Shown: positions 34,757 through 63,545 of the stretch, one piece after another
Layout: each line of letters begins with the position of its first letter
How positions within the stretch are numbered: the stretch's first letter is position 1
Assembly: GCA_012845835.1 (NCBI GenBank)
Contig: JABAKD010000025.1
Span: 214,001-278,000 of the forward strand
Direction: 5' to 3'
Source of the DNA: Undaria pinnatifida
Lineage: Eukaryota; Sar; Phaeophyceae; Laminariales; Alariaceae
DNA: 64,000 nt
Position numbers and translations under genes: made by a program
Notes under the pieces: model-generated
The model's input: only the letters and a program-made list of their open reading frames with translations
What the model was told of the DNA's origin: nothing
The model's database searches: none

Positions 34757-34984
34757 GTTCCGTCAGTCTTGACCGCGAGATTTTGTGCGCCTTTTTCGAC
34801 GCTACGAATAGTCCCGAAGGACAGATGAGTCGTGCGAAGTCTGGTAGCGTACTGACGCTCCAAGAGTGCTGGAAGCGTAAAGGCGGTTGGAAATCGTCTA
34901 AGCCTATGGAGGCGTGGCACGGCGTTACCACCAACGCGGAGGACAGGGTTATCGGCCTGAAATTGGACGAAAACAACCTCACAG
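34757..34984 (+). CDS. ROCO exon 1 seen: LRR N-terminal cap
   Basis: Acceptor GTGCAG, donor ACAG|GTAGAA, phases 1 and 1, 228 nt. It encodes SLDREILCAFFDATN, an insertion rich in Ser and Lys, then PMEAWHGVTTNAEDRVIGL and DENNLTG. The DRE-x-L...F-x-A-T...W-x-G-V-T-T pattern is the usual N-terminal cap of these LRR domains. The Cys-poor insertion between the two halves is longer than usual. Confidence 0.92.
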
Positions 34985-37900
34985 GTAGAACGTGATAGCA
35001 TGCGCCTCGTACGCAATACAAGCATCAGGTAGCTCGACATAAGTCTGCATACACCTCGTTTACATCGTATACAGCACCAGACACCCTCGTGCAGAGTACT
35101 CCTGTACGTGGTGAGAGACAAGAAAGCTGGTTCAGACAGGGTTTCTTATTTCAGAATGGGTGCAGTCTACGATATTTACGATGGTTTGAGAATAACGGCT
35201 CCTGTACTTTTGCTTTTCCTGCAAATCTCAGCCTGGGTTTCTTTTTTTGTACTATTTTTATTGGTAACGCAGGTGCCATGTACTGCTGTGTTTGAATAGA
35301 CTACTGCTGCTGATGTATAGTTGAGGTATGCGCGGGTTGTTCGCCTCGCTTTAAATTGTGCCTTCAATATCAATACTATGAACGAGTTCTGCGTTGACGC
35401 GCCTCGATTTACGACAACGGTCCCAAGACCATCGGACAATCGAAGGGTTAGCGGAATAGGATCTATGTTCGTGTAATCGTGCAACGTTTTCAATGAAAGG
35501 CGCCGATTTTATGAGGAAGGCCATGGAAACCTGCTGAAAACCTCACCTACACTCGTATGCGTGATACGTCCATCAACAAATATATGACAACGTAGACGAG
35601 TAGTCTCCTGGCCGACTCAAGAGCGATATTGCTTGGTCGCTTGGTCGCTTGGTTGCCGCCTCGCCGGCAATGGAATCAGGGCGAGTGGCGAAGGTGTCAT
35701 GACAGAGCTCTAGAGTGCTGTTCTGTGCCGGCCTGTCAGAGATCCAGAGTGCTCCTTGCTCTGTCCTACGGTCTATGATATGTGATTTTGTGTTATGTTG
35801 TGTGGTACGATAAATATAGAGAGGGACTACCTCAGACTCGTGCGTGACTTATGAAGCGGTGTACCAAAATGCTCATACACTTGATCCCCCGATGAAAGCA
35901 CATAATTTAGCAACGCAAAGAATTATAACACTCCCGGCCGTTGTTTGTCTTGTCTTCAACGTACGACCGGCTTGGTTTGGCCCCTGCTGCCATTGACTAT
36001 TAATCGACGACATTTTGACGGGAGGATTGCTCACGTAAAGATGATCGAGCCCAGCCAGCTCCAGGAAGCATTACGCAACGTTTGTGTGTTCCTCTTGTCC
36101 ATGGGAGCATTACTCAACCTTCCTTTTTTCCATGGGAGCTTTACTCGACCACATTTCCTCTTGTCCATGGGAACACTACTCGTTGTTTATGTCCCCCCTT
36201 GTCTATGGGAGCTTTGCTCAATCTTTCTTCTATCTTGTTGTCCATGCCCCTACTGTACCTGTAACCTCGTTTGTCAGGCGTCATACCCCCAGAGCTGGGC
36301 GGCCTCGTAGCCCTGGAGGATCTAAGCCTTCGGAAGAACGCGCTTAAAGGTGATCCTCTTTTGTGTTTTTTTTTCGATCTGCTGTGAATGAGATGCGACC
36401 CCTGGATAGGGTGATGCGTCAAAACTGTAAGTGCTCCGTGGTATTTGCAGCTATTGCAATGAACGCCAATCTGCGACACAATTCTTGCTTTTTCACACCT
36501 CGGTATTGCTGCTAACTTCGTCCCAGATCTATATTTTCCTGGGCAGTCGAACGCTACCAAACGGTGAAACGACAATATCAGCGAAAATCCCAAACTCTCG
36601 CCACCAAAAATTTGATATCCAATGTCGACGGAAACAAGGCCAAACAGACAATGCAGCCTTCGGCTGCGCCTCCAGCGGAGCATTTTCGCCAGCCGGGGAG
36701 GGACGGCCTGATTTGGACTCATCACCCTCTCACAATAATTTTCGGTGTTGAACATGATGCTAGCATTACGGCATACCCTACTTGAGACGAAATTATCCCG
36801 TGACAAGCCAATCTAGGTGGTATCATCTCCCGTGGGTAATACCAGGTATATATTATTGCAGCGCTACTTAGCCGGTACCACTTTGCAGTAGCTTTTTCAT
36901 GTCACGACGATTTTCATGGTATTATCTCCCGAAAAGTCTTGAACCGGAATGTCTTGAAATGGGTACACCACTCTACTTGTCTTAAACCGGCTTGTCTTAA
37001 ACCGAATTGTCTTAAAATGGGTACACCACGGTATAGGCAACACAGTGTAATCGACAAACGGGCTCCGCCGGAGCTTGATTATTGTTTAGAGCGTTTCCCT
37101 TGCACGCAGTGATGATAAAGCAGTGATGATACAGCATTCTACCACAGCAGTAGGAAGAGAGTGGTCGGCTTGGAGCGGGCTTCATCGCTGACCGTACGTA
37201 TACGAAGTATGATACGTGTTCGAGGATTTCCCCTTTATCTCGCTGCCGTTTGAAGTGTGTTGACTCGGAGACTACAGACTGGTGGTTGGTTTATAATAAC
37301 CCATTCACGGATTCCATGGGTCGTGCAAGAGCATCCAAAGATTAGCTGCAGCGCGATGTAATATACCTCCCTCCAGCTAATGCAATGTATATGCCCACCA
37401 ATGAGTATTCATTTTTGATTAGTGCAATATCACAACACTGTCCGGAAATATAATCAACGTTTGGCATGCGTATTTACACTCTAACGTTCCTTGTATTCAC
37501 GTACAGAGTGATAGGTTTTGCGTAATAGGCGATGGGCGGATTATACTATTATTTATGCCCGTCGTGATTATTGAGCACTTGCACAATCTAGCTAACGCCG
37601 AGCTATCATGCGCCGCTCAGCACGTTCGACACTTGTCGGAGTCGCTGACGTGCGAGGAAAGCCTTTCGAGGCGATGAAGATACTGATATGATGGCATGAT
37701 TGTATGATGGCATGATGGGATGATGGTATGATGCGATGGAGGGGGTACGTTTCGGTCAATGTTTATTTCTGATCGACGGTACGACGGGTACAACCCCTCC
37801 TCGCCTGAGGAGTGACCCAGTGTGTGTTCAGTCCTGTATGTGGTTTGGCCATTCTTGTTGTGTGCGGAGTGCGCGCACAGTTGAGCTCACGGAAGCTCAG

Positions 37901-40900
37901 CTCTTGGAATGAGGTATAGAGCTCCCCATGTTAGCGACTGGGCAAACTTTGGTACCGTCCCTCTACATTGGCATGGTCTATACAAGCCTGCTCTAGACGG
38001 TATGTAGCGTACATTCACCCGGTCTGGTGTTTGCCCAAATCTTCACTCAATGCCGTGTCACCCGAACAACCGTCTGTCGTCTATTAACAGGCGGCATACC
38101 TAAGGAGCTCGGGAAGCTGCGGGCGCTCAAGGAGCTCGATCTGTGTGCAAACCAACTTGTAGGTGAGTCTTTTTTTTATGTTTTTTCATCCGTCCGCTTT
38201 GATATTTCTGGAGATGTCGCATTCGGCAGGCGATAACAACTTCAACACAGTTGTGAGGAACTTAATACGACGTGTTGTGTAGCTGCTACTGTTTGAGGGT
38301 CTTTTGCGTGTATAGCACCAGACCGTTTGGTGCGTTGGATCTTTTCGCTCAAGACGCCAGAAGCTCTGCATTGGTGACATGTTTTTTCCTGGCGAAATGT
38401 CGAGAATTTTTTTTTCGCCGGCAATGGTCATCACACCATGGATGATACACTGTTTTTGCGAGCGAGGCTGTTTTACGATTGGCAGCAAAACATAGTGTTT
38501 CTACTTTGCGATTGGCGCAAGAGAATCGTTTCGATTGCATGATTGGCGCCTAAGAAATAGGGGCACCTTTCCACCCTCGCATGCGCGAATCTCCATGTTC
38601 CGTCCGACACCCTGAGATCTCCCCCAAAGAATAGCTAGAAAATGACATTTGTGACTACTAAAACAGCAGCAGCTACAGCAGTACTTGGTATATACTTCGA
38701 AGTAGTATAGTATAGTATAGTCTATAGTATAGTATAGGGTTAGGGTTGGGTTGGGGTTGAGTTCGCTCGGGTTCGGTTGGGTTGGCGATAGATACTAACC
38801 GATACTACGACATATCCACCTTCTTCGCGAGTTAATGGTGAGAACTACAACAGTTCATGGTACTTCATATCTGGCATTCCCTGAACCCCGGCAGCACGAG
38901 TGCCTCTGTGTGCACCAGTGCACCGATGCACCACCCGCTACTGCAGGATACACCCAGTAAAAAAAAAAAAAAACACCTTGTACATCGCCATTGTTTTCTC
39001 TCACACCTCGCCGAGCTGAAATTACTGCCGGAACGACATTTCCTTTGCAGGGCGACATGAGAAAACATACCGGTTTTCGCCTATACATTTTTTCCTCTCG
39101 TCATATATACGACTATCTGAATTGCGTGACCGTATATGCTACGTCGGCATCCATCGTTCACGTCCACGCCGTTCCGCCACAATCTAATCGCACGCACGCT
39201 ACCAGTACCGTAGCACGTTTTGACGGATGTTGTGGTAGCGGGGGGAAATAATGCCGGCGAACGGAAGTCACGAATGCTTCCCCTTAAGCAACGGAGGTGT
39301 TTTTGTGCGTCGGTATTTAAGGGGATTGGGGCTATCACTGCACGAACAGAGTTGTCTGCTTCTTTCGGAACCACTGGCCGTATGCGAGCGGTTTCGGAAA
39401 CTCGTCCGCCGGTTGTGTATCCTGTACTCCCGAAACGCGCTCGGTTTATCCTTTAATTGTCGATGGCCGAAGACCTGTGCTTCTCGAATATCACTTGGAC
39501 CCTGTCCGCCCGCAGACAGTGAGAGGTGCTGTCCGCGAACCCCGCAGCCGCCGCCTTTCTTCCCCCTCCCCCTCTTCCCTGCCCTTCCCCTGGCGTACAA
39601 CGGTAGCGTAAAGTCACCCCGTTCGACGTTGCCCAACGTTTCACTTTGTTATTATGCCACCAAACTCGCCTTCCAGGCGGCATACCGGAGGAGCTCGGGA
39701 AGCTGCAGGCGCTCAAGAAGCTATCTTTGTCTCGAAACCCGCTTGGAGGTGAGGGTTGCTGTTTTCGCGTCAGTCCATCACTGCTTTTGGTAAACCGTTA
39801 AAAATGCACTCCAGCTGTTGAGTCGCGTTTTTTGTCGAAACTCCTTTGAAGCTGCTGTGTCTGATACTTCGATCGCGCCTGTTACGGGGTATGTGTCCTC
39901 TTGAAGGATGTAGGTTTGTGGGATGCCGCGTAGGTGGCAATGCATAAAACACCAAGTATCACACACAGCTTGCAAATATGAGTTTCGACGAAATCTTCGA
40001 TCTCGCAGCTGGAATGTGTTTTTATTTTTTTCGAATAAAACATACCCGGTACCGGTATTGTAGTAGGTAGATAGAATGCGTGTTTTTCAAGGACAGGGTT
40101 TTGCCTGTATAACGCGCCATGTGTTGTTTTGCATGTTCCCTTGAGGCGCTGGAAGGACTGTATGCGCTAATAAACCACATTGCCTGGTGACTTGCGGGGG
40201 AATGCAATAGCTAAGGCCATCTCAGCATCAAATATGCTGCTAGCATTCCTAGAAACGGCAGTAGCGGCGCTTCAGGGTTGTTGTTGTTGGTGGTGGTGGT
40301 GGTGGTGTTGTTGGTGGTGATGGTGGTGTTGTTATTGTTGTTGTTGTTGGTGGTGGTGGTGGTGGTGATGGCGCTGGGGCTGGTGCTGATGGCGGTGCTG
40401 CTGTTGCTATTGTTGTTGGTGTTGGCAATACAGGCAGGCCCCAACAAACCCTAACCGTGGGTTTTAGTCAAGCATACCAACCATGTCAACCATATCAACC
40501 ATATCCCAAAAAGAAAATATTGCCAACAATGAATACGCGCGACTAAGGCAAGTCATACATCCACCACCCCAGAACCTGAGAGGTATCTTAGAGTGGTATC
40601 TTAGAGTGGTATCTTAGAGTGGTATCTTAGAGTGGTATCTTAGAGTGTATCTTAGAGTGGTATCTTAGAGTGGTATCTTAGAGTGTATCTTAGAGTGGTA
40701 TCTTAGATAGGTATCTTAGAGTGTATCTTAGAGTGTATCTTAGAGTGTATCTTAAAGTGTATCTTAGAGTGTATCTTAGAGTGTATCTTAGAGTGCAAGC
40801 GTTGTTGTTGCGATTAAGTTGCATCCTTACTTACTTGCTGAAACGCCTAACCCTAGGAATCCCATACCATATCCTACCAACCGAACCTACGAATTCACAG

Positions 40901-43900
40901 TAATTCACAGTCACAAAATTGCCGAAAAGGAAGTGTAGTCCGTTACTAACAGGTATAGACTACAACGGACAACATTGCTGAAAAGTAATCAGATCCGTTC
41001 GGGTGCTCCTCATTTAGGAATCCCATACCATATTGTACCGTGCTGTACCATATTGTACCATATTGTACCGAACCTAATCGTTGACTGGGACAAAATCGGG
41101 AAATTTGCCCCGATGCACAGTCGGGCAGCTAAAATAGGTACTGTCAGCTGTTAGGTATGCATGGAGTGATATAGGTACTGTTAGGTATGCAAGGAGTGAG
41201 TCATATTTGCCGCAAAAAGTAACGAGATCCGGTAGTTAGTTCCTTGAGGAGTCCCGTTAGTCAGATATATCTCAGGCCACAATCGTGCTACGTGTATCGC
41301 AGTACCCGGCAGTCACACTCGTCACTCGTCGCTCGTCACTCATCACGCGTCACGCGTCACTCGCCACTGGTCAGTACAAGACCTCCAATACAAACTTTGA
41401 CAGCCCATTGGTTCGCGATACGGCAGGTTAACTTACCGATAGAAACTTGTTTTGGTAAATGCCGTTTGTGAGAGTGATGTACGCCATCATAAAAATCATT
41501 GTACGTCGAAGGATGTGTCCTCATTACCCCACAACTTGCAGAGCGAAAACTGGTGTTATGTATAGACGAATATAATGTGGTCCAAGCCGAGTAGTGACCC
41601 ACGCTATAAATGCTAGTAATGCCACTAATGCTACGGCACAGGTGTGCACGCTATTAATAGCTACTGTAGTTCACACCCTTTTTGTTCCGGAGCTATTCAC
41701 TATAGGATCTCTATGCCCCACACCACACCACACCACAAAGAATGTAATTGATTTTGAGCAAACCTGAAGGTGCAACCAGATGAACAAATCCTAAGTGCTC
41801 TAGTGCTCTAGTCTATTATGAAGTGTATAGCGTTTTTCTTTTCTTTTTTTGCAAAACGAGAACGGCATAGTATGTCCAAGATTTTCGGTTAAGGTGGGTG
41901 GGTTAAGGAGCCCCATCGTTCAAAAATCAGTCTTGCCAAAAAGCGGTATACCTTAGTACTTTATTCTTCAATACCGCCATCCTAACCCTAGCCAATCAAG
42001 TCGCCGCTTTTCCGAGTCAAACGCTGATAAATAATCGTGCTTGTATGTAGGAGCTTGTTCTGGCGTCAAATCGACGAGCGGAAAGCTCGAGAGCGAGAGG
42101 TAGCAAATTCGACGAAAATCGAGGAGTACAAAAAGCTGAAATATAGGAATGCTGACCCCTATGTGCGATAGAAATGAAGGCACGTACCGGGGGGGAGAAG
42201 GAAAGACACCTGTGACCATGACCACGACCTTGTGGCTTGTCCAGAAGGTCGATGAGTGCAAAACCTCTTGCGAGTTGAGCTCGAGGGTAAGAACGGTAAT
42301 TAAAAATAAAAATGCTGATATATAGTATATGATAATAAATACTTAGTATATAATAAGAATGCACACGTGTTTATGAACCCCTGCCTATATTTATGCCCTT
42401 ATTTCCCACGGCTTGCGGCGCGAAACTTACTGGTGTACATGCACCAATACAAGCTGGTTCAAGCTGAATGTCCAGAGCCTGTTTTGGGTTCGAACCCAGT
42501 TAGTTTGAACATGTGTTTATGAGGCCCTGGCCGAACCATTACATCGTTTGAACATATGTTTTCGCCTGAAATATGATCGTTGTGGTTTTTTGTAGGTTGT
42601 CCGGAATGTGTGCCTTCTTTGCAATCGTTTTTGTTTTTTTCCCGAAGTCCACTCCCGCTCGATAGGAGCCCCCTCCTCCTCACGCGTATCACTCGTCAAA
42701 GGCTGCCTGCTTGCATTTGCCCGTTTGTGGTCGTTCCTTTTTTTGTTTTTCTGTGCTACTAGGTAGGTCAACCAATTTTCTAATATCCGCGAGGCATGTT
42801 GTTTACGAACCCAGTGATGTTACTTCTTCTTGCTCCCACGATCGTTCTTGCCAGGCGGCATACCCCCCCAACTGGGCAACCTTGGCGCCCTGCAGGAACT
42901 TCGATGCCATAGCAACAAGCTTGAAGGTGAAATTTATCGTTCTTCGCTGCGATCTAGTTTGAGTAGGAAATGGATGTGTACCAGTGATGCCAACCGTGAA
43001 CTCCCTCACCGAGCCTCTTTTGGCTTGGATCCTTCTCGATTATATACTTGGGGTACATGTTAAAATCTCAGCAACGCCTCACCGCCTTACCCTAGCCCAG
43101 GACAAGAAAAGCGCCATTGCAGATGACATTGCAGATAACATTGCAGATAACATTGCAGATGACATTGCAGATGATACGGTGTTCGCTCAGTGCTGGTTGT
43201 CCACGAGTACTCCCGCCGGAAGTTCAATGGATTTTTCCAACGGCAATCGCCTCGATTCTTTTCATCGTTTTTCGCGGGTCGGATTCACTTCTCGGATCAC
43301 TTCTGATGAAAGCTACGGTATTGTGGTACCATACCCCCTATTTCTACACCGGGTGTTAGCTCTCCTTAGAGCCTTGGCTCTCCTTGGCTCTGCCTAGGGC
43401 CTTAGCTGTTCGCAGGAGTGGCAAAAACACGTTGTGCGATTTGTTTGGCGCACCTTAGCTAACCTTAGCTAACCTTAGCTAACCTTAGCTAACCTTAGTT
43501 AACCTTAGCTAACCTTAGTTAACCTTAGCTAACCTTAGCTAACCTTAGCTAACCTTAGCTAACCTTAGTTAACCTTAGTTAACCTTAGCTAACCTTAGTT
43601 AACCTTAGCTAACCTTATCTTAGCTAACCTTATTTTAGCTAAGATTAGTTAAGGTTAGCTAACCATTCCTTTGGGAGTTCATACAAAAAACATCATACCA
43701 AAAGTTAAAATATCACGAAAGCCTGCGGCCGTGAGGAACAGGAGGGTCACTCTCGCGAGACACCCCGAGCCGCTGCAAAAAAAGCCGTGAAAACTAGATG
43801 AAACCCTTGTGGTACCGTACCCTTGGTCTTCTCCAGGTTCGGATCGTGTCAGGGTGACCCAGTCCGACCAATGGTATTTTGAAACCGCCTGACCAGACCC

Positions 43901-48977: not shown

Positions 48978-49009
<32 letters not shown>

Positions 49010-52000: not shown

Positions 52001-55000
52001 TCTCTACCAGCTGGGTTTGAGCAACAACAACCTTGAGGGTGAGCCGCGTCTCGCGTCCTCATCTCAGATGTTTCGTGTTCGAGTGTTCGAACACCTTCTA
52101 ACCCTAGTAAATGAACGTGAATGTAACCTCCAACACCAAAGAAAATGTTGCTGAGGATGTGGTGGTTGGTCGGTTGGAATTTAGTGCTCGTGGTTCAAAC
52201 GCCCTTTTCCGGCACTACAGCACCACGGTGCTACACAATAGGGCCCACTTTTGTTACAAAGCCGAGATGGCCTGTGGTGGCTTGGGAAAATCAGCGCTCG
52301 CTGAACCACGGATGAGGAATATTTGGTACGTTTTGTAGACGACCCGGGACCGATCAAGCTTCCGCTCTCTCCGGCTCACTGCAGGAGGTGTTGAGGAGGT
52401 GTTGAGGAGGTGTTCATGAGGTGTTAAGGAGGTGTTGAGGAGGTGTTCACGGGTTAGGGTGCCTTCAACTCCGCGGGGGTAGATGAGTTGCACGTGGGAT
52501 TCGAACTAACGTACATCAAGCTCGGGGCGCGGACGTGGCTAGTTGACATAAAAGGGCGGGAGCTGTTCTCCCCGGACGTCTTCTTCTCGGGTCGACCCTC
52601 GGTAGCGCGTTCCGCGCCCTCGGCTGCCTACGGCTGCCGCCCCGAGCACACCTCGGGCCCCGACGCCTGTCCCGACGGTACCCGTCCCGTCTGACCGCGA
52701 CCGAGGGAAGCCTTTGGATGCCCCGCTTTTAGGGCTCTCGACCCCTTCGGAGCTTCCCTCCGCGCCTACGGCTAATTTGGACGCCGAGCCATGTACGATT
52801 TTTTTAGAAATTGTTGTTTCGTCTTCTTTTTTTTTCCAAAAAACTTTAAATCACGTGTCGTAGTTACTGGCTCTTGTGCTTCCCACCCAACCACACTGAC
52901 TACAGATTGGGACAGCTCTTGGTTTTTGGGATGTGTGATGTTTTTTTGATTTCAATTTGCCTCTAACTGATGGATATGTGGGCAAAACATGGACTTTGAT
53001 TGTCGTTTCGTTTGCCTTCTGAATTGCAACGTGACAACCACCCGTACAAAATTGAAGATAAAAAAGATAGACGGTTCATCTTATCCACGGGAAATTGTGA
53101 AGGAATCGGTTCGTTCGAAAACGCGAAATTTGGCAAGACATTCATCATTTAACCAAAAATGGCCGATTTTGTTCGATTTTAGACACTCAGTTTTTTGTTT
53201 TGAAGTTTGTCCCCTAACTACTTGCAAATAGCGTTTATTTTGTTTTTACTTCTCACGCTCGGCATTGATTGCTTTTGTTTTTGCGGTGGCGAATATCGTT
53301 GCATCATCCCAAAAATGGTATTTTTCATTTTTCATTAGTATGACTACAAACGCGATTTTCGCAAAATTGCCCTGGGTGAACGACACTTGAGAGTATCTGA
53401 GTTCGTGGTAATGGGTTTATGCATATTTTTGAGCGGGTGTGGCGTTTCACACTTTTGGTCAAGGCAGAAAATATTACGGACGATGCTAAATAGGCGGCAA
53501 ACACTCGAGGCCGCACGAACATGCATTCGCCCGCTATTACTAGTCCGTTGTTCCGGACAACGTTAACGACGGCCTGAGATGGGCTGGTTAGCGTTATGTG
53601 ATGCCTGGCTAGAGGTTTTATTATGGTAGCTTAGCTTAAGTGAGTTTTCCTTCAGCTACTATACGCGAGCCACACCCAGCGTTCCACCCAGCCTCAAATG
53701 CGTGTTTATTCGTGCCTATCGCATGCGGCTTGGAAGGAGAGAGCGATTGATCTCTGGCGTTTTAGCTCGATAACGTGTCCACAATCCCTTTTTCCAGGGA
53801 ACATACCGGCGGAGCTAGGCAACCTCGGCGCGCTTCATTCCTTCCACTTGGAGCACAACCAGCTTACCGGTGAGGCTTACGTTGGACCGTTTCGAAGTAA
53901 GGCGGGGGTAGGAAATTCATGACACAACAACGGCAACTTCGTTTATCCTGTTGTATTCCAGAGTAGAAGTTGAGCACTGAGTGTGACTGAGTACACCATT
54001 ACTTGACCTTCGCCTGCAAGTCTGGTCCGAAAATATTGCAAGATGCGTTCGGAATGGCGCGTCAGCATCCTGCAGATCATGGCTCCAACTGGCACTTGCC
54101 TGATGAAACACAGCGGCTGGAGAGAGATAAAGACGTTGTCACACGCCCTGTGTAATATTTCTGCATTGAACACTTTTTGGTTTCTGCTCCTGGTGTTTGT
54201 CGGTATTTTTATTCCGGCATTATGGTGTCCGACAATGTGCCATTTCTCTGTTTTTTTACTATTTTTCTTATGGTGTCAGAAGGGCAAGCCGGTGGGAGAT
54301 TTTCAGTGGACATTCCCACTGCTTGGTAGGAGTCGCGTCCACGTACCTTTTTTTGTAAGCCCGGCTCCGGGTCGACGCGCACCTGCGTTTTCTGCAATGC
54401 CTCCACCCTACAACATTGTCGACAGAACCACCTGCGGTACATCAGCAGCATCGGTGTCCCCTGGCGTATGCCCTGGCGTATGTGGTACCGCCTTCCGCCC
54501 GCGTCTCGTGAACGCCACTAAAGGTCCGACTAGAGTCGGCGTGGCGTGTTGCGTGTTGCACAAGTCGATAATCATTTTGGGTGCACAATAAAAAATGCGG
54601 TAGCAGTATTAAAGCCAAGTAGGTTCAATCGCTCAATTTGCAGAATGTCATGGCGACAACTGGGGGCTTTACCGGCATAGAGGAAACGCTGTGTGCAGAT
54701 GATGCTTTGTCTCGCTTGAGCTGTGGAAGCGAAGTTGTTGACGTGTTGTCTACACGTAAACCCCTTGTGCAGGCAATATACCCCCCCAGCTGGGGAACCT
54801 CCATGCTCTCGGGCGGCTGAACGTCAACAACAATCTACTCAAAGGCGAGTTGTGTCTCGCAAGCTCGACTCCGATTTAGTTGTATGTTCCGTTCCAGTTC
54901 CTTGCTGCCGTAGTAGTACTCTGACGCGTAATTTGAGGTGAGCGTGGATTTTTGATAGCGTCTCATGCAAACGACGTTTTCTTGCTTTGAATTTGAATTT

Positions 55001-58000
55001 TATACAGACCCGGCAATCGTGGGTTTAAGCTCTGTCAACGAAAATAATACTTTCCGAAGCGATGACCGCGATGGCTGCATGTGTTTCTGGCGCATCCCTC
55101 GCATGGTACCAATGGTAGTTGCTATGGTTTGCCTTTTGTAGTGCGTTTTCTTTCGAGCGAATCGCCTTGCCCGTGCTGGTACAGCAGACAGGAAGTTGCT
55201 AACACGTGTTTGTTGAAATGATGCGGAAGGCAAAACCTCTCATGCCTCGATCATCGAATACTTCTGCTTGTCGAGCGCATCCGCACTTGTTGATTTGTGC
55301 ATCGATTTATGACGGGGTTCTGACGGTTGCGCATGAAATAGTCGCAGCCCTTGTTGCTTGATAGGTCTCTACAATGTACTTCGAAGTATATATGTACCAT
55401 ATCATACAAGATTTCTGCGGCTTACGCTGCCAGCCCAAGAAGCGATTACAAGATACATGACACCTGTATACACTTCAGGAGAAGCAAACTTGGCCTGCGT
55501 ATGCAGGAAAACGCACACGAGAGCTACGCACGCTTGAATACTACCACTACTAACCCATGAATGCGTGTGCAGTTTAGTCAGTAGTCTAGTCAGTAGTCTA
55601 GTCAGTAGTCTAGTCAGTAGTCTAGTCAGTAGTCTAGTCAGTAGTCAAGTCGGTAGTCTAGTTAGTAGTCTAGTCAGTAGTCTAGTCAGTAGTCTAGTCA
55701 GTAGTCTAGTCAGTAGACCTCGGTCCGTTTATGTGGACATTGCGGCGAGAAACTTGGCTTGCTGCTGGAGCCGCAATTGGAGCTTGATAGTAAGTTTTTT
55801 ACGGGGGTGTTGGCCGTGCCGCCTAACGCCGACCACCCCACCGGAGCCCTAACCCTTACGCTAACCCTATGGCTAACCCTATGGCTATGGCTATGGCTAT
55901 GGCTACGGCTGTGGAGTGACCTGTGCTTGTACGTTGTGGCTTGCGAAGGCTTTGAGGTTGTGGCTTGCGAAGGCTTTTGGATGCTGTGGTGGGAAGTATT
56001 ATAGTTTGATTTGGCCGGATCGGGATGCTGTGGCTTGAGAAAACTCTGGTGGTGGAGCCGCTTGTAAGATACCTGGTAACCAGAGTGGATAAATAGCTAC
56101 CTCAACAACATTTTGTATCATGTTTATGCTTCCACTCCAGAGTGATTGGAGCCTATCGTGTGACAAGCGACCTGATTGTGCTAGTTATTAATAGATATTG
56201 TGAGAGCAACAGCAGAACTATTGTGCTATCATAGTTATTAATAGTTGCTGTGAGAGCAACATAACTGCAGGAGGAAATTGCCTCCCCCTGAAAGTCTTCC
56301 CAGGGTGCGTGTTGTATTCGTGTTGTATTGCCTTGCACAGTAGGGGTCCCTCAGTAAGGCGGTCTGAGTAGGGCAGTGTGCGTATACAAGGCGGTCAAAA
56401 TCGCTGGGCGCGACTGGCGACTGGGAAATGGCACTCATATCCCAGAACGAATAAGGTGGCTTCCCCCGATAAGGCGGTCCTACTGCTCTATTGCTCTGGC
56501 ACACCACCGTTTTGCTGGGGAGCCCCTATAATACCATACATACTACTACTACAGGCATACATACTACTATAGTGATAAATGCTATCATACTATATCCATA
56601 CATACTACTATCGGAGTCATACTACGATAGTCACACTACTGTATACGGTATTTGTGAATACTATATCCATACATACTACTATCGGAGTCATACTACGATA
56701 GTCACACTACTGTATACGGTATTTGTGATGTTTTTGTCGGCTTCCGCCGAACTATTTTTGGCGTGGTTTATGAGCTAGTAATATACCAGGTAATAGTTAC
56801 TCCATGACGTGTTGACCTCAGGTTTGTCGTTAGCTATCGCGCTGTGGTGGCACTTGAACGTCGGGTTTAGGGTTAGACTATGTACTATGTACTATGTAAG
56901 CCTCGACGGTGTCGTATCGGGCACCCGTTCACAATTTTTCTCAAAACACCAAGTGGTGCGGACGATTCTGCGAAATGCGGCAATCAAACGGGGCCGACCG
57001 TCCTCTTGTTTTTTTCGGATGACCTTCATACGGACGGGCTGTAGGCTAGGGTTAGGGTATAACCCTTTTTGGTCTTGATTATATCTTGATTATAGTATAG
57101 GGAAAAACGACGAATAAAACTGGCGATTGCAGCAAACGTCACACGAACCAACCCGGGCTGCTAGATCAGACGACGACATTTTTTCTTTCGAAGTCCTACT
57201 TGGAAGTATGCAAGTACCTGTAAGACACGCGCACAGCTTGCACTGCGGTGTGCCATGCTGCATGAAGATAATAAAAGAGCATAAAAGAGCATGAAAGAGC
57301 ATGCTCGCACCATGATAAGAACGCGTCTATACTGTGCTTTATTGTTCGATGTGGGCTCCAAGAGGGTTAATAGTTCAGGATAAGTTTGGTGCTATTTTTT
57401 CGAGCAAACGTTGCCTTAATTATGGAGCCACGCGCAAACCGAACCACGCCTGACTTTTCACATTCATCCCCTGAGAAGTGTTTTGTATGCTTCGCGTATG
57501 CGGCTTCGAGGGAGACGGCGTGTGGCCCCTAACGCTTTTTAGGCCGTTGCCATCTCCACGTCCCCCCCCTCCAGGGACAGTTCCGGCGGAGCTAGGTCGT
57601 CTTGGCGCTCTCCGCACCCTCCGGCTGGAGGACAATCAGCTGACCGGTGAGCTATGCCATGCACCGTATCGAGAGGGGTTGGGGGTAGAGAATGCGGTAT
57701 ACCTTAGTGGCCACTTGTTGTATCCTCTGGTGCATGTCAAGCGTGGACGTTGACCTAACCATTCGTTACCCTTCGCTTGCAAAACTCGGCCGGAATTGGA
57801 TGAAAGATATCTCCTGCGTGTCACTCGAATCTTCTGCAGCCTAACGCTCAAAATCATCAAAATCATCGAAATCATCAACATCACACTCGTCCAATGAAAC
57901 ACAGCCGCTCAAGGATGATTAAACGCGCTTTCAAACGGCTTGGTATATACATATCCGCGCATACTGTTTTTTTTTGTGCTGCACTAATGTTCCCTCATTT

Positions 58001-61000
58001 TCCCGACTTAGTGCTTTCCGACCATCTCTCGATTTTCGGTTACTATACTAAACGTTGTCATGCTAATCATTCAATTTTACGCGGGAGCTCACGCCTGCGA
58101 TACATTTCGTGGGAGATTGTACCACTGTTTGGTAGGCGTGGCGTCCGCGTACTTTTCTTTTTCCGAGATGGAAATGCAGCCCATGTTTTTTTGGGACAAA
58201 CTAACTGGGATTAGTATAGAATAACCTGTGCAGTTGTAAACGACGGATTGACGCCCGGCGCTGGTTTGACGCAGAAATGCGTTGCCGAATGCTGCAGTGG
58301 CCTTGAAACAACATCGACCCGGCGACCTGCAGTAGATCAGTGAAGTAGATCAGTGCAGTAAATCAGTGCAGTAGATGAGAACAATACGAAAAGTCAGCCC
58401 ACCGGGATTTGTGAGTGTATGGTGCCTGGATGGTGCCTTCATGACGAGAACGAACGAACATGCCCCGCCCCCGCCCCTGCGCTTCTGCGTGTTTGAAACC
58501 GTGTTTATCGCAAGAAAGAGGTGAATACAGGTGAACACAGGCAATCTGTCATAACGCGAGATTTGGGAGTTGATGGACAGCTCGGACGATAAGTTTGTAG
58601 CAGGGGGACTGTAGGGGTCCGATAGGGGTCCGCCAATAAGCCGATCGGAGTGAGGCGATATCCCGATATTAGGCGACCAAAATCGCTCGGCGCGTCCGGA
58701 ATTGCAATACAATACAGTAGTACAGTACTCATTACCTGGAACGAATAAGGCGGCTTCCCCCGATAAGGCGGTCATATTGCTCTGGCATATCATACACAAC
58801 ACCGCCTTACCCGGGGACCCCAAGTACAACTAACATACTACTAGTAGTGCTAGTATTAGTACCACTGTAGCACGTAGGCGTTGTGAGATTCATCATTGGA
58901 GGAGTTGTATCCCTCTAATGCTCCACGGGTACACGCACATGAATGACCCATCTCATGGCCTAGTTGGAGGGCGAAAATAATTGTCGAACTCAAATGATGT
59001 TGAAACGATGGCGGACAGGAGACAAGAGACGAGAGACGAAAGCTCCTTCCTCGGCTGAGGAGCTTGCCTGCGTCACGATGCAGAAGCGTTTGGCGAAAAA
59101 GGGCTAACCTTAACCCTTTGGTGGCACATAGTAGCACGCATCCTAAGCTGTTTTGCCTTGACAATTGTCTAGTTTGTTAGCGAGCATTCTACCGTCCTTC
59201 ACGACCAAGCCTACGGCATGCTATTATTAAATATTAGGGGGGATGTTACGATGGTGCTATGATGGTGTTATGATATACCCCCATTTTCGCCTACGGAATT
59301 GAGCTATCATATCATATCATATCATATCATATCATATCATATCATATCATATCATATCATGTCATATCATATCGTACCCGCACGAGTGACACTCCGTACC
59401 TCACCGATGAAAGATACTTTTGGCGATTTGTTTTGCGCAGCTTTAAAAACTTTCCGTTTCATTACGGATTGGCATCGCAAAATAACGGCGCGAAACCTGA
59501 AAACTGCAAAAAGGAACAGGGGGGTTACTCGTGCGAGTGACCCCGAACCACAGCAAAAAAAAGGCCCCGATACCCTATCCTCCTACCCTACCCTCCTACC
59601 CTACCCTCATACCCTACCCTCCTACCCTATCCTCCTACCCTACCCTCATACCCTACCCTCATACCCTACCCTCCTACCCTACCCTCCTACCCTATCCTCC
59701 TACCCTACCCTCCTACGGTATCCTGCTTCTCACGTGAAAAATTACATCTATCTCTAGGCCTTCCGGCGTGGTTGTGTGTCCCAAACAGTGACGAGGGGTA
59801 CCCTTGGTTGCGTTTTGGGTCTATATTGGAAGTACTAGGTATAGTGTTGCTGTCTTATCACTCCGCTTGGTAGAACTACTTTATTCGCGTTTGAATATGT
59901 GGATGTACGGCGCGATACCAATCAGCGCCGACGTGAGGTATTCCTGCTCTTTGCCTCCTCCTCGTCGTCCTCCTCCTCGGTTTTGAGGGGGTGCCGGGTG
60001 TTTGCCATTTTTGCCATTGTTACTGTGGGGATTGATGTATAGTCTAGTCCACTTGTTTGCGGATGGTCTAAATGCACGCATACCTTATATGTAAAGCCTG
60101 TGCGCCAGTGTTGAACTCCTTCCATTGTGGTTCCCGACCCTTACGCGCCTTCGGCTTGTCCTTGTTGCTTGACAGAAAACATGTCAGGAGGCAGTGCTTT
60201 GACCCCTTGACAGGAAACAACCTTGCAAAAGCAACCCTTCAATGGCACTAGTTTTTCCTCAGTTTGCCCGACACCACAATACTCGGCTTTAGTGTGGAAC
60301 ACTCGGCCCTTCGTCCATCTTCACAGCGCGCGGTTTTCCTTGCTTGACTTGCCTCGTGACTTGTTTGCTTGACAGGGCTCTGGAACCACGCTCAACATGC
60401 GGAGCTCGGTCAGGAGGCTCAGGGCGCTTCAGGTACGTGTTTCACCGTGTCGTGCACGCTGTTGCGCAGGGATGTCTTGCGCAAGCGTAGGGTTGTGCGA
60501 GAAATGGTATTTCTAGTGGTTGGTTTTGTTTTCTTTGTACCGTTGTCTTCGCTTACGGCGTGATTACGTCGTGAATGTCGGATTCTTACGCCTGTTTCGT
60601 GTTCGGATTGCCGTTTTCCATCCGTTTGCCGAGTGTAGTTCGAGATTGAACCACAGCTTTCAACGCGGTTGAGGAACAAATACGTTTTTTTACGGCAAAG
60701 GTGGGCATGCTGTGTATTTGTAGCGCTTTGGTGCAACCATGTGCTCTATTGTTTTGTGGCTGCACCTATCGTAGCGCAGCTGCTGGCAGCATAACTACCA
60801 CCTACATGGTACCCAATATCCTCCAGCAAGTTGCCGGTACGTACAGCGCAATACTGCTTGCCAACTCAGGGGGTATCCTACTCTTTCGCTGAGTCGTACT
60901 TTCAAGGCAAAACCGCGTTTAACAGGATATACAAGTTTCGACAATCTGTGCAGTGTTGCACTGAAACTTCGAACAAGGCTGTAAAAATAGGCAATCATCT

Positions 61001-63545
61001 TTACGTTACTGGCTGATATGCCAGGCCTCCTCGGCGACGCTGGGCGATCGACAATGGACAGAGCCACAACATTACTTTCGTGCTTCTTTCCCATCGTCGA
61101 CTACCTTGGCAGGTGGCTCAGTCCCCGCCGAGCTGCGACATTTATTAGCCCTTCTGAAGTGTGTGGAGGAAAGGGGCTATCTTGGCTTTGACAACAACCC
61201 ATGGGCAGAGCCGCCCGAGGCTGTTGTGAAGAACGGCATGACGGCCGTGATGTCGTATTACGACGACCTATATTCTGAAGCCTGCATTGTTCGGCGTAAC
61301 AGTGTCAAAGTCGTGCTCGTCGGGCAAGAAGGGGCAGGCAAAACGAGGTGATACATCCGTTGTTTGGCATCGACGCTCATCTCCTAGCTCAAGAGTTGGC
61401 ACGATTTTTCAATTTACAATAACGTTACTCAGCGAGTTCACGCTGGTGAGACGCCCACAAGCCATTCAGAGCACGCACACGTTTGTATTTTTATTTTTTC
61501 CGGCCACGTTGCTGGGTTGACGGCACCGTAGGCAAAGCAACCTCCCCTCTCACAAATTGACTCAGGCCCGTTGCTGTCCGGCAATGATGCTCCATGGCAT
61601 TATTTTAATAGTTGCACCCGTAGGTTTCAAGATTGTCACAGCGTCTTGTACGTCTTGTTGGCAATGTCGAGGTGGACATCCACCTGGGACAGCTTCCCTT
61701 TGGGTGCCTCTATGTGCTACTTGTATGCATACCAGGTATTGCCTCAACTCCTTTGCATTTGGAAACCCATCTTTGGCGAAAAGTTACTTGCAATTTGTAT
61801 CGGGAGGGTTTGAGGGCTCGAAAGAGGTTGTGTCTCACCACATGCATACGGCACTTGCCGCGGACACCACTATTAAAAGGAAACAGTGTTTGGTTCATTT
61901 GATATTCCAGTATTTTCTTTATATGCTCGTGCCTGCAGAGACTTGTCGTATGGGCCAAGCGTCTTGGCCTTTCCACATGTGGCTGAATGTCACACAAGCT
62001 AATTTCTCACATCGAAACGCAAATCTTCACGTAATGGTGCACCTGGTACCGCTTAGTGCAGCCGTCACCTACTAGTGCTAGTACTAGTACAGTAGTGACG
62101 TTTTATGCTCCGCTTGGAAATGTAGGATTGACAAGTATTCTCACTGGCCTCGAACTCACGCAAATGTTCTCGCCGTTATGTTTCCGCTTCGGCCCCATCG
62201 GTCATGGTATGCTGGCGCACGTTTTGGGCAGCTTGTGCAGGAGTATGAAGGCCGGCCGAGCCACCCCCACCGATGGATCGACCGAGAGCACAGTTTTTGC
62301 AGATGTGGAGACCTTAGAGCTCAACGACGCCTCCGTTCGCGTGTACGATTGTGCTGGACAGGTATTCCGTTGTTGCGGCCACATGTATTGGACATGTCGG
62401 TTGATAGCGTTTCCCAGAGCTGCCGTGGCTAGCAAATTTACCTCATGGGTAATGCTTGTCTGACACCTAAGATCCTTGGGTTGTCTGGCTGGCGCCAGAT
62501 TCCTCTCGTTGGTATCTCATTGCGCAGAATGCTGTTAGTAAATAAAAAGAAGCGATTTGATCAGCTCAACGTATTCCCTGGTACTTTGATGCTTGCTTGA
62601 CGGCTTCGACAGGTTGCCTACACGGGGCTACTGCAGATGTTTCTGACGCCGCGGGCCGTGTGCCTCGTGGTGTGCAATGCTGGAGCGGTTGGACTGCGAG
62701 ATGGCGCGGCGGGTGGCCAGCTAGAGGAAGACATCGGCACCCTCGAGAAATTACGTGTATGTGATTGGATGCGATCCCTTTCTCAGCGCGTGCCTCGAAG
62801 CGACGTCATCCTTGTTGCCACCAAGTGCGACCTCGCGGGGGAGAACGCTGCTGATATAGCTCGGAGAATAGACGAAGCTTGTCAGACATGGTTGGCAGGG
62901 TGGGTTGAAGCCGGCATGGCGCCCGTGCGGCTGGAAGACGAGGTTTGTCTCACGAGCTGTTTCGCGGCAACCTCAGAGGGACAAGGGAAGCCTAGCAACG
63001 GTAGGATGGGGGAAGCTTGGGAGTGCGACTGGCGCGAGGACATGACATCGGAATCGCCGCCAAGCCTGCTCCATCGGGTCGTGAATAAGAGGGACGGAAG
63101 CGGTCTTCGTGGAGCTGAAATGATGCTTCCTAATAGCTGGAACATTGCCCTCGCTGTCCTCGACGCTCTGGAGCACGGGGTGTGAGTTTTGCCTCGAGAT
63201 AGGTCCAAAATGGTCTTATGATGCTGATTTAATCGCATAACTTAAATCGAAGGTTGAAAACAGTCAGGTAGTCACACGTTTCACATGGTTTCGATGCCGT
63301 CTGACACGCGCATTGGTCATTTTTTCATCATTATGCAGAGATCCCGTGGAAGCTGTGGTTGAACGATCACCTCGGCGCGATGGCGGGGTGGAGAGCAACC
63401 CGGCAGCCTCCAAGCCGGAGCCATTCAAGGGCATCACGGTGGAAGAACTCAAGTTGAGATGGCTGGCTGTCGTTAAAACGTTGTCGGAGAATGGCATCGA
63501 AGTCAAGAACCCGGGGCATGCTTTGGAGGGGGCGCTTTCTATCAG
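34757..63545 (+). CDS. LRR-ROCO GTPase gene (start exon unresolved, 3' part beyond window)
   Basis: Whole-gene entry; exons are listed separately. Order: LRR cap exon, thirteen 72-nt LRR exons, exon with last LRR plus P-loop, two more Roc exons, and one exon leading to COR. All LRR exon junctions are phase 1, so any LRR exon can be lost, gained or reordered without breaking the frame. About 768 residues are in the window. Roc motifs: G1 GQEGAGKT-S, G3 DCAGQ, G4 ATKCD. Known of the family: Roc-COR proteins are GTP-regulated dimers with LRRs as ligand or partner surface. In brown algae LRR-ROCO genes show fast exon turnover and are candidate pathogen receptors. The receptor role here is inference. 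Introns run from 157 bp to 3.5 kb. The gene continues right of 64000. Confidence 0.93.
36095..36245. repeat. Tandem repeat of about 35-40 bp (TTGTCCATGGGAGCwTTACTC)
   Basis: Four to five imperfect units in the intron just before LRR exon 2. Confidence 0.85.
36278..36349 (+). CDS. ROCO LRR exon 2
   Basis: 72 nt, phases 1 and 1; acceptor TTGTCAG, donor GTGATC (weak). One LRR: IPPELGGLVALEDLSLRKN. Confidence 0.92.
37678..37738. repeat. Microsatellite (GATGGyATGAT)
   Basis: Imperfect ATGATGGCATGAT units. The rest of intron 36350-38090 shows no gene. Confidence 0.85.
38091..38162 (+). CDS. ROCO LRR exon 3
   Basis: 72 nt, phases 1 and 1; acceptor TTAACAG, donor GTGAGT. One LRR: IPKELGKLRALKELDLCAN. 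Confidence 0.95.
   Translation, partial: AAYLRSSGSCGRSRSSICVQTNL
38698..38765. repeat. TATAG repeat followed by TTAGGG-like tract
   Basis: Imperfect AGTATAGTATAG, then GGGTTAGGGTTGGGTTGGGG, similar to the TTAGGG-type telomere repeat. The 3' end of dispersed family F is near 38826-38855 and an A-run near 38960. Confidence 0.85.
39677..39748 (+). CDS. ROCO LRR exon 4
   Basis: 72 nt, phases 1 and 1; acceptor CTTCCAG, donor GTGAGG. One LRR: IPEELGKLQALKKLSLSRN. Of the other LRR exons it is closest to exon 3 (shared GGAGCTCGGGAAGCTGC). Confidence 0.95.
39800..40021. mobile_element. Hairpin element, arms of about 70 bp (MITE-like)
   Basis: The left arm 39800-39870 (ACTCCAGCTG, TTTGTCGAAAC, GCTGTGTCTGATACT) is complementary to the right arm 39954-40021 (AGTATCACACACAGCTTGC, GTTTCGACGAAA, CAGCTGGAATGTG). 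A half-copy is at 30350-30450. It lies 52 bp after LRR exon 4. Confidence 0.85.
40270..40430. repeat. Triplet repeat (GTT/GGT)
   Basis: TTGTTGTTGG and GGTGGTGGTG runs. The polyThr/Asn reading on the minus strand is an artefact. Confidence 0.9.
40580..40796. repeat. 13-bp tandem repeat (TATCTTAGAGTGG)
   Basis: About 17 units of 12-13 bp, some lacking one G. Confidence 0.95.
40800..42854 (+). other. Rest of the intron between LRR exons 4 and 5, no gene seen
   Basis: It contains TATTGTACCATATTGTACC repeats near 41030-41065, a CACTCGTCACTCGTCGCTCGT repeat at 41310-41367, and the perfect palindrome TGGGTTCGAACCCA near 42486. Open frames are short. Confidence 0.55.
42855..42926 (+). CDS. ROCO LRR exon 5
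   Basis: 72 nt, phases 1 and 1; acceptor TTGCCAG, donor GTGAAA (weak). One LRR: IPPQLGNLGALQELRCHSN. Cys replaces the usual Leu of the core strand. Confidence 0.94.
43108..43175. repeat. 15-bp tandem repeat (CATTGCAGATrACAT)
   Basis: Four units in the intron after LRR exon 5. Confidence 0.9.
43452..43665. repeat. 10-bp tandem repeat (AACCTTAGCT), about 20 copies
   Basis: Nearly perfect AACCTTAGCT/AACCTTAGTT units; degenerate at the right end, where they read TTAGCTAAGG. Confidence 0.95.
43690..43800. mobile_element. Short inverted-repeat element, copy 2 (right part), between two tandem arrays
   Basis: It matches copies 1 and 3 in GAACAGGAGGGTCACTC-CGCGAG and CGAGCCGCTGCAAAAAAA. The left terminus is diverged. 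It lies between the 10-bp array at 43452-43665 and the 5-bp array at 43893-44020. Confidence 0.55.
43893..44020. repeat. 5-bp tandem repeat (GACCC), about 24 copies
   Basis: Near-perfect CGACC units; polyGly/Ser/Arg reading on the minus strand is an artefact. Confidence 0.95.
44318..44405. repeat. Dispersed repeat, copy 2 (first copy 24645-24735)
   Basis: Same orientation and block order as copy 1. Small repeats follow at 44690-44735 (CCCCTCAATAGTG) and 44835-44870 (TTGCAGCCG), and a TTGGG-rich tract at 45310-45380. Confidence 0.7.
45521..45743. repeat. Tandem duplication, period 112 bp, just upstream of LRR exon 6
   Basis: TGAACTTGTTCTTGTCTTTT at 45521 is repeated at 45633; both units run through GCGCCGATCCAGCGCACTG to CATGGAGCATTTT. 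Few changes: a recent duplication in the acceptor-side intron. Confidence 0.95.
45790..45861 (+). CDS. ROCO LRR exon 6
   Basis: 72 nt, phases 1 and 1; acceptor CGAGCAG, donor GTGAGC. One LRR: IPRELGKLHALKNVLLYRN. Confidence 0.95.
46875..46946 (+). CDS. ROCO LRR exon 7
   Basis: 72 nt, phases 1 and 1; acceptor TTTCAG, donor GTGAGC. One LRR: IPEELGNLGALERLGLSSN, ending QLTG. Confidence 0.95.
46947..48621 (+). other. Intron between LRR exons 7 and 8, no gene seen
   Basis: A short TTGTCTTGTC repeat is near 47580-47600. Open frames are short and lack motifs. Confidence 0.6.
48622..48693 (+). CDS. ROCO LRR exon 8
   Basis: 72 nt, phases 1 and 1; acceptor TTTCAG, donor GTGAGT. One LRR: IPAELGSLGALVTLQLENN. 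Confidence 0.95.
49933..50004 (+). CDS. ROCO LRR exon 9
   Basis: 72 nt, phases 1 and 1; acceptor TTTCAG, donor GTGAGC. One LRR: IPPALGTIENLFSLDLSDN. It is the most divergent of the full-length repeats (ENL instead of GAL). Confidence 0.95.
50030..50121. repeat. Tandem duplication, period 46 bp, just after LRR exon 9
   Basis: AAAGAAACTTGGAGTATAAA starts at 50030 and 50076. A further repeat of about 37 bp (TACCGTACCGCrTAAGGTTA) is at 50376-50470 and TTAGGG-like sequence at 50717-50745. Confidence 0.92.
50946..51017 (+). CDS. ROCO LRR exon 10
   Basis: 72 nt, phases 1 and 1; acceptor TTTCAG, donor GTGAGA. One LRR: IPVELGNLGALYFLRLEKN. Confidence 0.95.
51967..52038 (+). CDS. ROCO LRR exon 11
   Basis: 72 nt, phases 1 and 1; acceptor GTGCAG, donor GTGAGC. 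One LRR: IPPQLGKLKALYQLGLSNN, ending NLEG. Same subgroup as exons 5 and 13. Confidence 0.95.
52380..52450. repeat. 12-bp tandem repeat (GGAGGTGTTGAG)
   Basis: Six imperfect units in the intron after LRR exon 11. The rest of intron 52039-53797 shows no gene; 52800-53400 is AT-rich. Confidence 0.92.
53798..53869 (+). CDS. ROCO LRR exon 12
   Basis: 72 nt, phases 1 and 1; acceptor TTTCCAG, donor GTGAGG. One LRR: IPAELGNLGALHSFHLEHN. Confidence 0.95.
54773..54844 (+). CDS. ROCO LRR exon 13, with GC donor
   Basis: 72 nt, phases 1 and 1; acceptor TTGTGCAG. One LRR: IPPQLGNLHALGRLNVNNN. The donor reads AAAG|GCGAGT: a GC-AG intron in an otherwise strong donor context, the only one in this gene. Confidence 0.93.
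55570..55715. repeat. 12-bp tandem repeat (AGTCAGTAGTCT)
   Basis: About 11 units. A shorter CTAACCCTATGGCT repeat with telomere-like parts is at 55845-55915. Confidence 0.95.
56110..56230. repeat. Dispersed repeat family F, copy 3
   Basis: CTTCCACTCCAGAGTGATTGGAGCC and TGTGAGAGCAACAGC, diverged from the copies at 27955 and 29806. Confidence 0.7.
56340..56530. mobile_element. MITE-like element with TAGGGG termini, copy 1
   Basis: Left end TAGGGGTCCCTCAGTAAGGC, right end CTGGGGAGCCCCTA (inverted). Internal TAAGGCGGT motifs, CAAAATCGCTGGGCGCG and TATTGCTCTGGCA are shared with 58609-58826. No coding capacity. Confidence 0.8.
56589..56730. repeat. Exact or near-exact tandem duplication, period 71 bp
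   Basis: ACTATATCCATACATACTAC begins at 56589 and 56660. Confidence 0.95.
57575..57646 (+). CDS. ROCO LRR exon 14
   Basis: 72 nt, phases 1 and 1; acceptor CTCCAG, donor GTGAGC. One LRR: VPAELGRLGALRTLRLEDN. Confidence 0.95.
58609..58826. mobile_element. MITE-like element with TAGGGG termini, copy 2
   Basis: Left end TAGGGGTCCGATAGGGGTCC, right end CCGCCTTACCCGGGGACCCC (inverted). It shares the interior blocks with copy 1 in the same orientation. Confidence 0.8.
59300..59372. repeat. 5-bp tandem repeat (TATCA)
   Basis: About 14 units; the preceding sequence ATGATATACCCCCATTTTC is shared with 5098-5117, left of the other ATCAT array. Confidence 0.95.
59379..59535. mobile_element. Short inverted-repeat element, copy 3 (MITE-like), between two tandem arrays
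   Basis: Left end CGCACGAGTGAC, right end GTTACTCGTGCG: terminal inverted repeats with one mismatch. The right part GGAACAGGGGGGTTACTC matches copies 1 and 2. Confidence 0.65.
59566..59720. repeat. 15-bp tandem repeat (TACCCTACCCTCCTA)
   Basis: About ten units, some with CATA for CCTA; directly right of the element at 59379-59535. Confidence 0.95.
60376..60432 (+). pseudogene. Degenerate LRR exon (57 nt), probably a dead LRR cassette
   Basis: Bounded by TTGCTTGACAG and a usable donor CAG|GTACGT. The centre GCGGAGCTCGGTCAG...GGCGCTTCAG matches the nucleotide consensus of the 72-nt exons (GCGGAGCTCGGnnAGCTGCnGGCGCTnnAG). The IP and the second half (the L-x-L-x-x-N part) are missing. It remains phase 1-1 and 57 is a multiple of three, so inclusion would not break the frame but would insert a non-LRR AELGQEAQGA segment. 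Confidence 0.65.
61113..61347 (+). CDS. ROCO exon: last LRR, linker and Roc P-loop
   Basis: Phase 1 in, phase 2 out. It begins VPAELRHLLALLK, a degenerate LRR, then FDNNPWAEPPEAVVKNG as C-terminal cap, a linker with YYDDLYSEA, and VVLVGQEGAGKT, the G1 P-loop of Roc. The Ser after GKT is split by the intron. Confidence 0.95.
61348..62231 (+). other. Intron inside Roc, no gene seen
   Basis: 884 bp. An open frame 61557-62075 has no motif and breaks the Roc fold if retained. The correct junction is fixed by AG|C giving GKTSLCRS. Confidence 0.7.
62232..62361 (+). CDS. ROCO exon: Roc switch region and G3
   Basis: Phase 2 in, phase 0 out, 130 nt. It encodes LCRSMKAGRATPTDGSTEST and ends VRVYDCAGQ, the DxxG (G3) motif. 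Donor CAG|GTATTC. Confidence 0.95.
62613..63181 (+). CDS. ROCO exon: rest of Roc with G4
   Basis: Phase 0 in, phase 2 out, donor GTGAGT. It begins VAYTGLLQMFLTPRAVCLVV, contains VILVATKCDLAGENAADIA (G4 TKCD) and VCLTSCFAATSEG at the G5-like position, and ends in an ALDALEHG helix. Confidence 0.95.
63339..63545 (+). CDS. ROCO exon: Roc-COR linker / start of COR
   Basis: Phase 2 in, phase 2 out, donor CAG|GTACGC. It encodes DPVEAVVERSPRRDGG, a polar linker, then VEELKLRWLAVVKTLSENG, which matches the W-x-x-hydrophobic helix at the start of COR. No continuation was found in 63546-64000, so the next exon lies beyond the window. Confidence 0.88.

Follow-up and report, generated by a model that had tools for sequence, protein, structure and literature searches.

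A probable LRR-ROCO GTPase gene of the brown-algal kind, with thirteen one-repeat exons, in Undaria pinnatifida

Brown-algal LRR-ROCO genes and comparable systems

Zambounis et al. are said to have described in 2012 the LRR-ROCO architecture of brown algae together with its variable concave residues, and to have proposed that the encoded proteins act as immune receptors. Exon exchange, or a choice between exons, has been put forward for the brown-algal ROCO and NB-TPR genes as a source of a receptor repertoire. In excerpts of Teng et al. (2024; PMC11378527), 111 ROCO genes are reported from four brown algae, with 15 more sequences containing such exons in Saccharina japonica; nucleotides 3-71 of the 72-bp exons encode a 23-residue LRR, and sites 14, 16, 18 and 19 (on the concave face) are predicted to be under positive selection. 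The same excerpts describe splice variants that differ in their set of LRRs (exemplified by two Ectocarpus genes), suggest somatic recombination while stating that somatic recombinant ROCO loci are unreported, propose an immune-receptor role for the brown-algal LRR-ROCO proteins, and give COR as found by profile in only 18 of the 111 genes. Since a 2026 kelp study links, in its excerpted text, ROCO genes to growth variation (PMC12913910), immunity is not the sole candidate role, and that of a receptor is a proposal of the literature.

We analysed a window of 64,000 nt (contig JABAKD010000025.1, positions 214,001 to 278,000; all coordinates below are those of the window), which very probably carries an LRR-ROCO GTPase gene of the brown-algal kind (groups 1/2 of Teng et al. 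2024), with tandem-duplicated one-repeat exons, a variable concave face, a Roc domain and a solenoid that would bind ligands. As in the published groups (as far as the excerpts describe them), there is one LRR per 72-bp exon in a constant phase (13 of 13 exons), the LRRs are N-terminal and the Roc domain C-terminal, and the published variable sites 14, 16, 18 and 19 correspond to positions 15, 17, 19 and 20 of our gene. The ‘phase 2’ of that publication is the phase 1 used here, the offset of nucleotides 3-71 showing an identical split. Unlike the published groups, the gene has a divergent stretch within one exon (exon 9), and positive selection on it is less firm. The preliminary description had placed this DNA among the brown-algal LRR-ROCO genes for which exon shuffling has been proposed; the architecture does match the publication, but the intron flanks favour old tandem duplication over recent shuffling. 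The locus is a further example of the published architecture and adds no new mechanism by itself.

The Roc GTPase domain is shared with ROCO proteins of the LRRK2/DAPK1 type, from which the modelled gene differs by the lack of a kinase match in the model, by 24-residue GxIPxxLG repeats and by the allotment of one exon to each repeat. The NLRs of the NLRP3 type belong to another LRR class with another exon length, and are without a Roc domain. In Dscam, exon clusters form tandem arrays that are a possible source of isoforms. The likeness to the former lies in an LRR domain built from modular exons (alternative splicing being reported for the NLRP3 type in excerpts of PMC6642158), and that to the latter, which is discussed in the excerpts of PMC11378527, in the tandem exon array; Dscam makes a choice between exons, of which our array gives no evidence.

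Exon anatomy and the Roc domain

The forward strand between positions 36278 and 57646 holds thirteen exons of 72 nt, all running from phase 1 to phase 1 and encoding one 24-residue LRR apiece (Table 1), with the first base of a glycine codon split off at both ends of every exon. An AG precedes all 13, and a GT donor follows 12 of them, the one exception being the GC after exon 13 (54845-54846); the introns between the LRR exons measure 903 to 3106 nt. The statement of the preliminary description that exons 2-14 are exactly 72 nt long and phase 1-1 was thus borne out in every exon by length, phase and splice borders, and so was that of a constant backbone: seven positions (G1, P4, L7, G8, L13, N21 and L23) are the same in 13/13 exons, three (I3, L10 and A12) in 12/13 and two (L16 and L18) in 11/13. 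In a six-frame search of the window with a profile made from a first set of 12 exons (whose own matches follow by construction), exon 12 (53798), which had been held out of the profile, was recovered at 33.8 bits, the best score among 40 dinucleotide-preserving shuffles of the window being 11.8 bits. The same search found no LRR exon beyond the 13 on either strand of the window (next match E 2.4).

Around the array, we modelled an upstream exon for the N-terminal LRR cap and six downstream exons, of which the first two (57 nt each and frame-neutral) are doubtful and probably spurious, respectively. Measured against 2000 open 54-mers drawn at random from the gene region (mean codon log-odds -0.21, sd 0.23, 95th percentile 0.16), the codon use of exon 15 is coding-like, lying above the 95th percentile, and that of exon 16 falls inside the background. 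The 20-exon model, these two included, translates into 805 residues with zero stops; splicing exon 14 straight to exon 17 likewise leaves the frame open and, by reading of the translation, keeps the repeat spacing within one residue. No start-codon exon was identified in the window upstream of exon 1. A first guess at an exon at 61632 was dropped, since it is the exon at 62232 that carries on the reading frame of the P-loop.

Pfam matched the 805-residue model with LRR_1 (123.1 bits) and with Roc (PF08477; 50.3 bits against a cut-off of 27; model residues 491-620). The model contains the stretches GQEGAGKT, DCAGQ and TKCD, which we take to be GTPase motifs. In a sequence search against solved structures the Roc part gave weak matches, the best being Rab-30 (E 2e-6), with the LRRK2 Roc domain lower (E 0.0017). 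The model yielded no COR match at E 0.01, the window stopping 455 nt past the last modelled exon, and no kinase match in Pfam; Rfam gave no match at gathering scores. Among the contigs searched, from which records close to the window's own genome may be excluded, the LRR cassette pattern had 0 matches in viral contigs, and the Roc exon gave peptide-pattern matches in 1 viral and 22 prokaryote stretches, none of them confirmed as a relative.

Table 1. Exons of the modelled LRR-ROCO gene
Feature	Position	Strand	Basis
Exon 1, N-terminal LRR cap (ends ...WHGVTTNAEDRVIGLKLDENNLT), phase 1 at both ends	34757..34984	+	open frame, AG/GT borders, phase fits exon 2
Exon 2, LRR (GVIPPELGGLVALEDLSLRKNALK)	36278..36349	+	profile match, splice borders, phase
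Exon 3, LRR (GGIPKELGKLRALKELDLCANQLV)	38091..38162	+	profile match, splice borders, phase
Exon 4, LRR (GGIPEELGKLQALKKLSLSRNPLG), 81% nt identity with exon 3	39677..39748	+	profile match, splice borders, phase
Exon 5, LRR (GGIPPQLGNLGALQELRCHSNKLE)	42855..42926	+	profile match, splice borders, phase
Exon 6, LRR (GSIPRELGKLHALKNVLLYRNNLD)	45790..45861	+	profile match, splice borders, phase
Exon 7, LRR (GSIPEELGNLGALERLGLSSNQLT), flank class A	46875..46946	+	profile match, splice borders, phase, flank alignment
Exon 8, LRR (GRIPAELGSLGALVTLQLENNHLT), class A upstream flank only	48622..48693	+	profile match, splice borders, phase, flank alignment
Exon 9, LRR (GSIPPALGTIENLFSLDLSDNQLN), class A flanks, divergent codons 1-16	49933..50004	+	profile match, flanks, silent sites
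Exon 10, LRR (GCIPVELGNLGALYFLRLEKNQLT), class A	50946..51017	+	profile match, splice borders, phase, flank alignment
Exon 11, LRR (GRIPPQLGKLKALYQLGLSNNNLE), flank class B	51967..52038	+	profile match, splice borders, phase, flank alignment
Exon 12, LRR (GNIPAELGNLGALHSFHLEHNQLT), class A	53798..53869	+	held out of profile, found by profile
Exon 13, LRR (GNIPPQLGNLHALGRLNVNNNLLK), flank class B, GC donor	54773..54844	+	profile match, phase, flank alignment
Exon 14, LRR (GTVPAELGRLGALRTLRLEDNQLT), class A	57575..57646	+	profile match, splice borders, phase, flank alignment
Candidate exon 15, 57 nt, frame-neutral, not LRR-like, doubtful	60376..60432	+	codon log-odds 0.37 per codon
Candidate exon 16, 57 nt, frame-neutral, not LRR-like, probably spurious	60780..60836	+	codon log-odds -0.02
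Exon 17, last LRR, linker (DNNPWAEPPEAVV...), Roc start with P-loop GQEGAGKT	61113..61347	+	open frame, Pfam
Exon 18, Roc continued (SLCRSMKAGRATPTDGST... VYDCAGQ)	62232..62361	+	open frame, Pfam
Exon 19, remainder of Roc (includes TKCD) and beyond	62613..63181	+	open frame, Pfam
Exon 20, downstream of Roc; gene appears to continue past window end	63339..63545	+	open frame

Joined in genomic order, the thirteen one-repeat exons would form a leucine-rich solenoid whose concave face varies, after which a Roc GTPase switch, and then (as expected by homology, beyond the window) a COR domain, would follow. Such a solenoid would likely work by binding a protein or microbial ligand, the binding changing the state of the GTPase. 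As each exon is frame-neutral, skipping may give rise to shorter, still foldable solenoids, and skipping or re-ordering would leave the reading frame intact.

Variation among the repeats and selection on the concave face

The three motif subgroups named in the preliminary description hold broadly (KLxALK in exons 3, 4 and 6; PPQLG in 5, 11 and 13; LGAL in 7, 8, 10, 12 and 14), with exon 9 belonging to none of them; the fuller NLGAL/QLTG motif ascribed to the third subgroup does not, as NLGAL is found only in exons 7, 10 and 12 (and also in 5) and exon 8 ends in HLT rather than QLT. The idea that subgroup members cluster along the gene found no support on either count: adjacent pairs of the same subgroup number 2 (2.9 expected, P=0.84), and the mean within-group distance by rank is 4.26 (4.66 expected, P=0.22). 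Overall, the farther apart two LRR exons lie in the gene, the lower their nucleotide identity, although the trend is weak (rho -0.26, P=0.017).

The solvent-facing positions, said earlier to differ between almost all exons, do so: positions 15, 17, 19 and 20 (the published four concave positions, numbered from the split glycine) combine differently in each of the 13 exons, and with a mean entropy of 2.79 bits they rank 19 among 10,626 four-column sets. We estimated omega over the 13 exons with a custom codon model, the fits ending after at most 60 iterations. On the main tree omega reached 1.79 at the four concave sites versus 0.27 elsewhere (2dlnL 52.7 over one omega), and on 8 bootstrap trees 1.29-2.26 versus 0.23-0.28 (2dlnL 44.2-65.4 over one omega), with silent sites near saturation (pS about 0.64). 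The concave omega was raised relative to the rest of the repeat, but its excess over omega=1 (2dlnL 3.0 for the main tree and 0.8-7.4 for the bootstrap trees) passed 3.84, and with it significance at 5%, on only 3 of the 9 trees. The M2a model fitted better than M1a, the gain being 13.8 for the main tree and 10.6-12.8 for the bootstrap trees, with the M2a class consisting, on the main tree, of site 17 alone. Relaxed constraint at the four concave sites is clear, and positive selection on them is likely but not firm; once the exon set had grown, purifying selection would have held the backbone, with the concave residues varied by relaxed or diversifying selection.

Exon 9 departs from its relatives in a part of its length. 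By their flanks exon 9 groups with exon 7, and for the pair 7-9 identity is lower within the exon (42/72) than in the flank (195/263; Fisher 0.013), the flanks being taken from best local alignments, which favours them. In codons 1-16 it shows 26/35 silent differences to the five other exons that share its flank class (exons 7, 8, 10, 12 and 14), as compared to 41/109 among those five, a count in which the cut at codon 16 was chosen post hoc and the pairs are not independent (they share exon 9); in codons 17-24 there is no excess (8/21 versus 19/53). When the first 48 nt of exon 9 were set against the 40-nt downstream flank, the outcome was mixed: exon 14 gave a result in the expected direction (P=0.017, uncorrected), exon 8 one in the opposite direction (P=0.018, same design), and exons 7, 10 and 12 were not significant. 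The divergent stretch would be accounted for by accelerated change, or by a short tract converted from an unseen LRR exon. We regard as improbable the more specific reading in which conversion tracts shorter than an exon swap stretches among the LRR exons, and in which a diverged LRR exon from outside the array was the source of about 48 nt of exon 9, leaving splice sites and flanks untouched and involving no crossing-over in the introns; if true, it would mean that shuffling in LRR-ROCO receptors acts at a finer grain than the proposed exchange of whole exons.

Intron flanks and the origin of the array

As a clean LRR array with readable flanks, the locus can be used for asking whether such cassettes spread by tandem duplication or by true shuffling. 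The flanks were compared over 118 nt and 300 nt on each side of the exons. Exons 7, 8, 9, 10, 12 and 14 have homologous intron flanks (class A), as do exons 11 and 13 (class B), the better flank pairs being about 60-78% identical across 65 to 270 aligned intron nucleotides. The upstream flank of exon 8 is of class A, and for its downstream flank no relative was found in the 300-nt comparison. Exons 3 and 4 are alike within the exon as well as in the upstream flank (z 8.6, by 60 single-base shuffles with simple repeats unmasked, as for all flank z-scores). Taken together, these homologies suggest that exons 7, 8, 9, 10, 12 and 14, and the pair 11/13, arose by old tandem duplications in which an exon was copied along with neighbouring intron sequence, and by which the exon set would have been expanded; plain tandem duplication is mostly what the flanks suggest at this locus. 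The duplication would lie long ago because no exon pair is more than 81% identical (exons 3 and 4 being the closest). Furthermore, exons 10 to 14 alternate in the order A-B-A-B-A, which would fit a duplication of two-exon blocks, and among exons 7-14 the mean exon identity is 0.66 for next-but-one neighbours (lag 2) as compared to 0.56 for immediate neighbours (lag 1).

On the other hand, the array could be one of active exon shuffling or splicing choice, in which genes trade exons, or different combinations of exons are selected, to yield a large receptor repertoire. We consider this unlikely, even though the cassettes are equal in length and frame-neutral, exon 9 has its divergent stretch within ordinary flanks, and the excerpts of PMC11378527 report the splice variants and suggest the somatic recombination mentioned above. 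The same ceiling on exon identity means that the array shows no sign of a recent internal exchange, and the exon 9 flank test, split as it was over its five partners, speaks against the shuffling reading as well. The flank trees bear on it in both directions. When 110 nt of flank are used for all six class A exons, the upstream data are at odds with the downstream tree (AU 0.012, as compared to 0.069 in the opposite test), but this conflict vanished in a five-exon set without exon 8 and without one copy of a 46-nt repeat after exon 9 (both changes having been made together), for which the upstream and downstream 110-nt trees agree. At 280 nt both sides of the five exons split 7 and 9 from 10, 12 and 14 (support 96 and 80) with no mutual rejection. 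At 200 nt a one-way conflict remains, the upstream data rejecting the downstream tree (AU 0.006; reverse 0.18), while in the other direction the five-exon sets give no rejection at 110, 200 or 280 nt. We thus abandoned flank discordance as a proof of shuffling: it is weak and is not counted as evidence for it, yet neither does it amount to a clean negative. Old tandem duplication of exons together with their flanks is the reading that we prefer for the array.

A decayed or partial gene that retains its LRR exons is a very remote prospect: the start exon not identified in the window, the single GC donor (GC being a normal minor splice-site type), the doubtful exons 15 and 16 and a 3' end beyond the window are the points in its favour, and against it stand frame, length and splice borders kept in 13/13 LRR exons, Roc exons that are open too, and an omega of 0.23-0.28 outside the concave sites (which reflects the history of the repeats and not that of the gene alone).

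Several tandem repeats lie in the introns of the gene. Just past exon 9, positions 50030-50118 hold a near-duplicate of the 46-nt unit (1.9 copies, 88% matches), which disturbs short flank alignments. A 112-nt tandem duplication (45519-45743, 97% matches) that ends 46 nt upstream of exon 6 is recent, and two perfect 71-nt tandem copies (56587-56728) are found in the intron before exon 14. Elsewhere in the window, a 193-nt unit is present twice in perfect tandem (18582-18970), which suggests that it was duplicated recently or that the assembly is responsible, and a 174-nt unit (26978-27797; 4.8 copies, 76% matches) overlaps a minus-strand open frame without a Pfam match. Pfam was also run on 12 other open frames, out of the 165 frames of at least 100 codons on both strands of the window. 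One of them, on the forward strand (4513-4998), encodes a cytochrome b5-like domain (Cyt-b5, 45.7 bits against a cut-off of 23.7) and belongs to a different gene, which lies upstream of the ROCO gene at a distance of about 30 kb.
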